DNA of 64,000 bases from Acidimicrobiia bacterium (GTDB taxonomy: Bacteria > Actinomycetota > Acidimicrobiia > Acidimicrobiales > Poriferisodalaceae): the NCBI GenBank assembly GCA_022821985.1, contig JAJECP010000013.1, positions 1-64,000 on the forward strand, in the 5' to 3' direction. The notes below the pieces were generated by a model that worked only from the letters and a program-made list of their open reading frames with translations, was not told the DNA's origin and searched no databases. This document shows, piece after piece, positions 1 through 3,193 of the stretch (within the stretch, counting starts at the first letter, position 1; each line of letters starts with the position of its first letter). A program made the translations under genes and the position numbers.

Positions 1-73
1 GATCCGCCCCGATCAGATCCTCCGCCGACAGAGTCGACAGCATCGCCATCTGGTCATCAACAGTTCCCCGCAT
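1..73 (-). CDS. Transposase, N-terminal fragment (cut by window edge)
   Basis: An ATG at 73 (minus strand) opens a frame of 24 codons beginning MRGTVDDQMAMLS and reaching LSAEDLIGAD at the window edge. Transposases of IS1182/IS5-like elements typically open with such a short leader followed by L-[IV]-P/G-x-D-H-P-[LI]-R; the visible part fits up to the D. Only this N-terminal piece is visible, so catalytic residues, intactness and family cannot be judged. Confidence 0.55.
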   Translation of the reverse strand, partial: MRGTVDDQMAMLSTLSAEDLIGAD

Positions 74-150
74 CCCGCCAGTGTCCCGCACCCGCACACC
101 CAACGCGAGCACCAAACCGGCCCTTTTTCAGCACCCTGCTAAAGCGCCCT
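1..150 (-). mobile_element. Left-edge fragment of an insertion sequence (IS1182/IS5-like), terminal end only
   Basis: The minus strand from base 73 runs off the left edge as the start of a transposase-like protein. Upstream of its start, around 124-143, lies a short imperfect palindrome (TTTCAGC...GCTAAA) of the kind often found between the transposase start and the outer end of such elements. The exact outer boundary cannot be set because the other terminal repeat is outside the window; 150 is a guess. Assignment to a family is from the N-terminal style alone. Confidence 0.45.
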
Positions 151-214: not shown

Positions 215-264
215 GTGCGCCGCCCCGAACTCGGCCACAAGCCTTCAACCAAGGGGCGGCGCAC
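215..264. repeat. Perfect 12-bp inverted repeat
   Basis: GTGCGCCGCCCC at 215-226 is matched by its exact reverse complement at 253-264, with a 26-bp spacer. A second pair, TTGGTT (195-200) and AACCAA (247-252), interleaves with it in a pseudoknot-like order. It could be a hairpin terminator for the gene ending at 425 (minus strand), or the scar of a lost mobile element. No T-run follows. Confidence 0.5.
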
Positions 265-328
265 TTGCAATCCTCAGCGTAACAGCAGAGGCCGGAGTCA
301 TTTCTAGGATTATCGAACCGCTTTCGGA

Positions 329-356
329 ACGCCGATAATAGACATTATGTCAAGTT
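329..356. other. dif: Candidate dif site (XerC/XerD recombination site)
   Basis: The 28-bp stretch has the 11-6-11 layout of bacterial dif. The XerC-like arm is ACGCCGATAAT (329-339), the centre AGACAT (340-345), and the XerD-like arm TATGTCAAGTT (346-356). The inner arm halves ATAAT and TTATGT match the E. coli dif arms. From memory, the ending TTATGTCAAGT also resembles actinobacterial dif sites. It may be the chromosomal terminus site or a copy carried by an element that exploits Xer. An IS end lies about 180 bp away. Confidence 0.65.
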
Positions 357-424: not shown

Positions 425-1279
425 CTAACCCCTGGTTTGCGATGGGCCCGGTGAGTCCGCGGCGGCTTCGCAGGCTGGTGAGGCCCGGCTGCTGTCGTCA
501 AAGCACCAGGGTTGCCATCCCCGGATAACCCACATGTCGTACGCAACCTGCAGGTTGATCTCCGGTTGCAGCCATGGATCGCATGGAGAAGACGGTCGAC
601 GACCTGTACGTCGCCCTTCCTCCTTGGCATGGAAGCACCACTGCGCGGCGGGTGTAGCGATGGTGATGCCGTCACAACGCAGTTCCGGCGCACTGATGTC
701 GTCGGGCAGACGGGCAACCTCGGGAAGTCGATCGATGCCTTTGCCGGCCCAGCAGGTGGCGTTGAGCTGGAGGAGGCCCCAGTCGTTAGTGACAGACACC
801 AGGCGTTCGGTGCAGCGCGATTCTCGCCACATCAACGCGAGGACTACGTCGGGGTCCCAATCCCCCATTTCTTGAACCTGAGATCGGTAGCGGTCACATG
901 CCAACGACACTCCTGGCGCAACCGTGCGGCGGAACTGCTGACTCGGTTCGACGAGTTCATATGCGGTCGCGATGGGCGACGCGGGCAGATTCGGATGCTC
1001 GACGACCGCGTTGTCTTCCACTCCCTCCCTGCGTGGCGACGCCGGCTCGGAACTGGCTTCGATGATGACCGGCGGTGCTGTCAGCGGGCTGCGTAGGGCC
1101 GTCGAGACCGAATCTGCTGATGACAGCGTCGAGCGTTCGGCGGATGGGCTCGCCGGGGGCGACGTGGTGCCCATCTCCGGTGAGCTGGCGGCAGCCAAGA
1201 TCAATGCACCGGTGGCGACGGCCGACACACAGACCATGGCCGCGGCAATGCGCTTGAGATGTCGTGAGAGAAGGGGCAT
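425..1279 (-). CDS. Secreted or membrane-anchored lysozyme-like (SLT-fold) protein
   Basis: Predicted 284-aa exported protein with a transglycosylase/lysozyme-like fold that would cleave peptidoglycan outside the membrane. The N-terminus MPLLSRHLKRIAAAMV followed by a hydrophobic run is a signal peptide or anchor, then comes a low-complexity Ser/Pro/Ala linker. The catalytic region carries LALMWRESRC (likely catalytic Glu in the RES triplet) and DWGLLQLN, the usual E...G-L-x-Q layout. Six or more cysteines suggest disulfides. A GTG at 1327 would add 16 residues; I prefer the ATG at 1279 because it puts the signal peptide at the start. It stands alone, divergent from the amidohydrolase operon. 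Phage origin is possible but not shown. Confidence 0.7.
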   Translation of the reverse strand: MPLLSRHLKRIAAAMVCVSAVATGALILAAASSPEMGTTSPPASPSAERSTLSSADSVSTALRSPLTAPPVIIEASSEPASPRREGVEDNAVVEHPNLPASPIATAYELVEPSQQFRRTVAPGVSLACDRYRSQVQEMGDWDPDVVLALMWRESRCTERLVSVTNDWGLLQLNATCWAGKGIDRLPEVARLPDDISAPELRCDGITIATPAAQWCFHAKEEGRRTGRRPSSPCDPWLQPEINLQVAYDMWVIRGWQPWCFDDSSRASPACEAAADSPGPSQTRG

Positions 1280-1456
1280 TGCCTTGGGGGGGGTCGGCAA
1301 ACGAGTCGGGAGCCTATGGCTTGACACTCGCTGAGAGATGTCAGCGTCCCGGCAGGCCTGGAGCGGGACGGGTAGCGTGATGAGACGGTTGCTCGGGCGC
1401 CTGGCCCGGATGCAACCGGCGCGATCAGATCACGCCGAGCAGTACGGGGGCATGCC

Positions 1457-3193
1457 ATGAGCGCTGAGTTCGACATTCACATCAAGGGCGGCACGGTCGT
1501 CGACGGCACACGGGTGCCTCGCTACAAGAGCGACGTTTGGATCCGCGACGGCAAGGTCGCCCAGCTCGGCGGCCGCCCGCAGGGCACGGCCGAACGCGAG
1601 ATCGACGCCACCGGCAAGATCGTGGCGCCCGGCTTTGTCGACCTGCATACCCATTACGACGCCCAGATTCGCTGGGATCCGTGGTGCACCATCTCGGGCT
1701 ACCACGGCGTGACTTCGGTCGTGCTCGGGAATTGTGGCTTCGGCTTCGCCCCCGTCAAGCCCGAGTTCCGCGATCGCTCCATGCTCACCATGACCCGTAC
1801 TGAGGCGATCCCCTATGAGTCGATGCGGCTGGGCATGAACTGGGACTGGGAGACCATCCCCGAGTATCTCGATTCGTTGGACCGTGCCCCCAAGGGCGTC
1901 AATGTCATCCAGTACATGCCCACGGCGTCGCTGATGACCTACGTCATGGGCCTCGAGAAGGCTAAGGCGGGCGAGCCGGCATCGGAAGCCGAGCGCAAGG
2001 AGATGGCTCGCCTGCTGCACGAGGGCATGGACGCGGGGCTGTGCGGCTTCTCCATCCAGCGCCTCGGCCCCGACAGCGTGCAGGCCGATTTCGACGGCTC
2101 CCCCATGGTCACCGACATCATGTGCGACGAGGACATCCTGAACCTGGCGCGCGTGCTGGCGGAGCGGGACGAGGGCTTCATCCAGATCACCCAGGGCACC
2201 GGCGACATCCGCGCCGACATCAAGTTCCTCGAGGTGCTGGCCGGCACCGCTCGCCGGCCCATCCTGCACAACGTGGTGGCGCCGGCCCGCAAGGATCCCG
2301 AGGTGCACCGGCGGCCGCTGCGCTGGATCGACAAGTGCTGGAACCAGGAACTGCCGATCTATGCACAGTGCGGCACCGGCCGCGCTGGCTTCGCCTTCAC
2401 GCTCGAGCACTGGAACCTCTACGACGCCTCCCCCGCCTGGCGTGCGGTCACCACGGGCTCCAAGGAGGAGAAGATCGAAAAGATGGCCGATCCGGAGCTA
2501 CGCAAGGCGCTGGTGGACGAGGCCGAGGAAGCCGACCGCCGGCTGCAGGTCATTCAGGCAGGCGTGGGCGGCAACCCCAAGGGCCTGATCGTGCAGGGAG
2601 TCAACCGCCAAGCCGACATGCAGCAGTACGTCGGCCGCTCCGTCGGCGATCTGGCCGAAGAACAAGGCAAGCACCCCGTGGAGGTCATGCTGGATCTGTC
2701 CCTGCAGGGCGATCTGAACGTGGAGTTCCTGGGCCCCGACAAGGGCTCGAACGCCGAGTTCATGGGCGAGATGATGCAGTCGCCGTACGCCATCCCCGGC
2801 GTCTCTGACGGCGGCGCGCACACCAAGTTCTTCAGCGGCGGCTCCTACACCACCGACTTCCTGACGTGGCTGGTGCGCGACGAAGGCACCGTGACTCTGG
2901 AGGAAGCGCACTACCGGCTCTCGGCACTAGCGGCCCACGCTGCGGGCTTCAAGGACCGTGGCACGCTGCGTGAAGGCGCCGCCGCTGACGTGGTGGTCTA
3001 CGACATGGAGGAGCTCGAAATCGATCCGCCGTGGATCGGCAACGTCGAGCACGACCTTCCGGGCGGCGAGTGGCGTCGGGTCCAGCGAGCCAAGGGCTAT
3101 GACCAGATCATCGTGAATGGCGAGGTCACCTTCGAGTCCGGCGAATGCACCGGCGCAACCCCCGGCCGGCTGCTGCGCCACGGCCGCGGCTGA
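1457..3193 (+). CDS. D-aminoacylase-type amidohydrolase (amidohydrolase 3 family)
   Basis: 578-aa metal-dependent hydrolase similar to N-acyl-D-amino-acid deacylases and related amidohydrolases, probably cytosolic. The start IKGGTVVDGTRVPRYKSDVWIR is the usual N-terminal beta-sandwich strand. HTHYD (about residues 64-68) is the metal-binding HxH after strand 1. GNCGFGFAP (about residue 96) holds the Cys that bridges metal in D-aminoacylases. VSDGGAHTKFF near residue 450 supplies the conserved late Asp. Length is typical, but substrate cannot be read from sequence, since family members also act on other cyclic or acylated amides. It leads a three-gene operon with a DsbA-like protein (43-bp gap) and a flavin monooxygenase, so it may open a small catabolic pathway. 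Confidence 0.8.
   Translation: MSAEFDIHIKGGTVVDGTRVPRYKSDVWIRDGKVAQLGGRPQGTAEREIDATGKIVAPGFVDLHTHYDAQIRWDPWCTISGYHGVTSVVLGNCGFGFAPVKPEFRDRSMLTMTRTEAIPYESMRLGMNWDWETIPEYLDSLDRAPKGVNVIQYMPTASLMTYVMGLEKAKAGEPASEAERKEMARLLHEGMDAGLCGFSIQRLGPDSVQADFDGSPMVTDIMCDEDILNLARVLAERDEGFIQITQGTGDIRADIKFLEVLAGTARRPILHNVVAPARKDPEVHRRPLRWIDKCWNQELPIYAQCGTGRAGFAFTLEHWNLYDASPAWRAVTTGSKEEKIEKMADPELRKALVDEAEEADRRLQVIQAGVGGNPKGLIVQGVNRQADMQQYVGRSVGDLAEEQGKHPVEVMLDLSLQGDLNVEFLGPDKGSNAEFMGEMMQSPYAIPGVSDGGAHTKFFSGGSYTTDFLTWLVRDEGTVTLEEAHYRLSALAAHAAGFKDRGTLREGAAADVVVYDMEELEIDPPWIGNVEHDLPGGEWRRVQRAKGYDQIIVNGEVTFESGECTGATPGRLLRHGRG

Follow-up and report, generated by a model that had tools for sequence, protein, structure and literature searches.

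The window, a stretch of 64,000 nucleotides at the start of a 72-kb contig (C34) in the draft genome of an uncultured Acidimicrobiia bacterium, begins with the end of an insertion sequence (IS), which is followed by a hairpin, a 28-bp dif-like site and two genes (Table 1). The left-hand neighbours of the site, a gyrA/parC-like and gyrB/parE-like gene pair, were located across the IS at the start of another contig, C22 (L090:137-4770). The first-pass annotation had remarked on an IS end and an inverted repeat close to the dif-like site, and both are real: the inverted repeat pairs GTGCGCCGCCCC (215-226) with its complement (253-264), with a folding z of -3.5 against shuffles. The hairpin is common to this genome and its relative G009 and is absent from G008.

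Table 1. Features at the left end of the window. Arm names of dif are presumed, by analogy with E. coli.
Feature	Position	Strand	Basis
IS end with the start of a leftward DUF772/DDE transposase; terminal repeat TTTCAGCACCCTGC at 126-139	1-139	-	Identity to contig C13; whole elements in relatives
TA on the dif side of the IS	140-141	.	Ends of C34 and C22 against uninterrupted G010
Terminator-like hairpin, 12-bp perfect inverted repeat	215-264	.	Repeat search; folding
dif, predicted chromosome dimer resolution site	328-355	+	25/28 to the F. alni predicted dif; single copy; genus conservation; polarity switch
dif, left (XerC-type) arm	328-338		
dif, centre	339-344		
dif, right (XerD-type) arm	345-355		
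Gene adjoining dif, weak match to SLT (transglycosylase), under the curated cut-off	425-1327	-	Beside dif in relatives too
Amidohydrolase family gene	1457-3193	+	Conserved beside dif

The site had been described as an 11-6-11 dif-like sequence at 329-356, and these bases read exactly as described. Comparison with the dif suggested for Frankia alni, as printed by Kono et al. 2011 (PMC3025954), places the best register one base to the left, because the window sequence at 328-355, AACGCCGATAA-TAGACA-TTATGTCAAGT, matches that predicted site at 25 of 28 positions (left arm 10/11, centre 4/6, right arm 11/11). At least 25 matches would be expected by chance about 8e-7 times per whole genome under a base-composition model. 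The site shares with this printed actinobacterial dif its length of 28 bp, the 11-6-11 layout and the presence of one copy per chromosome, and differs from it at one left-arm and two centre positions, as well as in its host, an Acidimicrobiia metagenome genome. About 20 bp to the left, at 309-316, part of the left arm recurs in inverted orientation (ATTATCG); this copy reads ATTATCGGCG in G004 and G010 (L019, L020) and was seen by eye in five of the nine dif-bearing genomes of the genus; it could be an extra half-site or a product of chance.

Further copies of dif were sought throughout the genome, as the first reading had advised, and none appeared. Inside the window no second match within three mismatches to the 329-356 site was found, and 100 dinucleotide shuffles of the window gave zero matches at the same threshold. 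A 26-mer of the site, allowing up to three mismatches, matched once in the whole genome (3,310,788 bp, 41 contigs), and a looser arm pattern likewise occurred in one place. A scan of 61 genomes, our own included, allowing at most two mismatches in the 19 specified bases, detected the site in 20 of them, with one copy each; a reversed control pattern had no match in the 61 genomes. Within the genus, 9 of 11 genomes carry the site, and no match was found in the drafts G001 and G002, which are 84% and 90% complete. A sample of the phylum had matches in 58 of 248 genomes and none in the other 190 at the threshold used; one of the 58, G132, has two matches, both in the first 500 bases of contigs. 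The exact pattern occurs in 19 records of a named genome collection, corresponding to eight Acidimicrobiia metagenome-assembled genomes and 11 other actinobacteria, including Phycicoccus, Nocardia, Saccharothrix and Knoellia. In the two relatives assembled as one contig, dif lies at 2.32 of 4.58 Mb (51%, G038) and at 2.23 of 4.78 Mb (47%, G042).

GC skew is weak in the window and shows no clean switch at dif; the first 20 kb to the right of the site have a skew of +0.010, where a terminus model expects a negative value. The skew is also irregular in G038 and G042 (20 sampled stretches each). We therefore dropped the GC-skew switch as a test of the terminus, since the signal is not strong enough either here or in the two one-contig relatives. 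Oriented words were searched over C22 (96 kb), taken as the left side of dif by its IS junction, and C34 (72 kb). Of the 3,479 heptamer pairs present 15 or more times, GGGGGAG was the most polarised, with 31 copies pointing toward dif and one away. In nine genomes of the genus, over about 4 to 27 kb on each side of dif (in our own genome the right side only, 72 kb), 94 copies point toward the site and 3 away. In G006 the switch coincides with dif inside a 501-kb contig (20 stretches read), and in G042 (66:5 toward:away) and G038 (135:45) it lies between the samples that bracket dif. Ten further genomes, picked from the 58 phylum matches for their long contigs and read over 20 kb on each side of dif, gave 142:4, two of them, both of family f56, being weak at 7:1 and 3:1. 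On contig C1, near gyrB, where a flip at the origin was sought, GGGGGAG counts were low and mixed.

In E. coli the polar motif KOPS is GGGNAGGG; near dif in the genus it occurs 10 times toward and 12 times away from the site, and is thus not polar. GGGGGAG resembles KOPS (PMC2680272) in being a G-rich polar motif that points to dif, but its sequence is different. Three Corynebacterium papers locate dif by the strand switch of octamers termed 'architecture imparting sequences' (PMC2830990, C. aurimucosum; PMC3219685, C. variabile; PMC3164646, C. ulcerans). The published corynebacterial set applied to C22 and C34 gave 54 copies toward dif and three away. The words and their use are the same, with a strand switch marking dif, whereas here they are shown in Acidimicrobiia. 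We accordingly do not regard the GGGGGAG polarity as a novel finding, since the same octamers already appear in those three papers.

Six hits to the tyrosine recombinase family were obtained in the genome. Two of these proteins, encoded on C10 and C19, align to XerD/XerC models along almost their entire length, with scores below the XerC and XerD equivalog cut-offs, and the cut-off of the general tyrosine recombinase subfamily is reached by one of the two alone. Two other family members match the XerD/XerC models weakly, four of the six having been scanned so far. An FtsK gamma domain is also encoded (96 bits), so that the host genes by which a chromosomal dif may be recognised, XerC/XerD-type recombinases and FtsK gamma, are both present.

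As to the IS, bases 1-141 of the window are identical to those with which contig C13 begins (G000:C13:1-141). Two contigs thus open with this IS end, so that at least two copies of the element exist, both breaking the assembly. Contig C22 opens with the opposite end of an element of this kind, after which comes the terminal part of the GyrB/ParE-like gene. At the junction, the uninterrupted sequence of G010 reads GACATCTAAAGCGCCCTG, whereas in C22 the gene ends in GACATCTA and is followed by the repeat GCAGGGTGCTGAAA, and in C34 the terminal repeat is followed by TAAAGCGCCCTG. A second TA is present on the parE side in C22, so that the parE stop codon seems to carry a 2-bp target duplication. 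The comparison of the C22 and C34 ends with G010 therefore places the IS in the TA of the parE stop codon, and a stop (TAG) is re-formed by the first base of the IS. We infer the order C22-IS-C34, no single contig spanning the junction. In G007 and G012, complete elements related to this one code for a DUF772 and DDE_Tnp_1 transposase, and a comparison of the transposase fragment with plasmids gave no match. The assembly broke at the IS, which lies about 190 bp from dif; it is an ordinary transposase element inserted at TA, unrelated to dif and showing no visible connection with Xer.

Both proteins of the parC-parE-like pair score below every gyrase and topoisomerase IV equivalog cut-off, the A-like protein alone passing a general subfamily cut-off, and a second gyrB-type gene is present on C1. 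Of the 16 genomes in the family that carry dif, 12 have parE at most 2 kb to its left, our own being counted across the IS. The gene lies about 11 kb from dif in G018, and was not found in the 1.5 kb examined per side in G012, G019 and G020. Outside the family, no parE was detected beside dif in four dif-bearing genomes of the same order, in loci L130-L156 (1.5 kb on each side or to the contig end), or in the 8-kb loci of the 11 named records, and a literature search found no title on parE-dif adjacency. One could imagine that the parC-parE-like operon is kept by dif, reading toward it, because a decatenating enzyme made or loaded at the last-replicated point helps chromosome separation; we consider this unlikely. 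If it were true, the position of parC-parE would count among the functional features of the terminus in this Acidimicrobiia family.

The insertions between dif and the neighbouring genes vary by genome and leave dif itself untouched. G003 and G009 (L070, L081) have a common insert of about 570 bp abutting dif on the right, with different flanks beyond, and G007 (L076/L077) has about 1.8 kb directly to the right of dif that by eye resembles a HipA/HipB-type toxin-antitoxin pair. Conserved flanks were considered as part of the dif site and rejected, since the flanks turn over and only the 28 bp and a few bases are kept.

The first-pass annotation had also raised the idea of an Xer-exploiting mobile element (IMEX), for which the site would serve as attachment site instead of, or besides, being the chromosomal dif. 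The difference in sequence to the right of dif among close relatives (about 570 bp in G003 and G009, about 1.8 kb in G007) agrees with it, but such turnover would be no less likely were constraint limited to the 28 bp between two genes, and the right flank of our own genome is collinear with that of G008 from -11 to +1124. An IMEX would form a block between two dif-like sites, and neither such a pair nor a second site was found: from -3 to +4 kb around dif in nine genomes no other sequence agrees with the arms at more than 15 of 22 positions, where dif itself reaches 21-22, the rest of our own genome holds no other, and viral contigs have no exact match to the site pattern. We regard an attachment site as very improbable, and the suggestion was abandoned. 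The length of C34, just 72 kb in a draft assembly, would also allow the dif of a plasmid or secondary replicon, a reading with hardly any probability left given the collinear genes of relatives on contigs of up to 501 kb, a class II tRNA synthetase gene with an editing domain at 9.9 kb, the mid-chromosome position of dif in two one-contig relatives and the single dif in the genome.

The uniqueness of the site, its conservation in the genus and the switch of motif polarity at it argue for the chromosomal dif and for a window that starts in the terminus, as had been suspected. Judged from sequence, the site is almost certainly the chromosomal dif of this Acidimicrobiia bacterium, with a proposed role in Xer/FtsK resolution, and it is well supported that the window begins in the replication terminus, the position of dif here coming from a draft and not from a closed chromosome. 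It is an ordinary actinobacterial chromosomal dif, a known kind of feature in a new genome. Two Xer tyrosine recombinases would bind the two 11-bp arms, and upon arrival of FtsK two dif copies would be recombined, converting a dimeric chromosome into two monomers at division. Polar, G-rich GGGGGAG copies on both chromosome arms would lead FtsK to dif. The IS beside dif is unrelated to it, having inserted where the neighbouring parE-like gene ends, and it accounts for the contig end at the start of the window. These data locate the terminus in a draft genome with no recourse to GC skew, and show that the GGGGGAG polarity described in the corynebacterial papers also marks dif in Acidimicrobiia.
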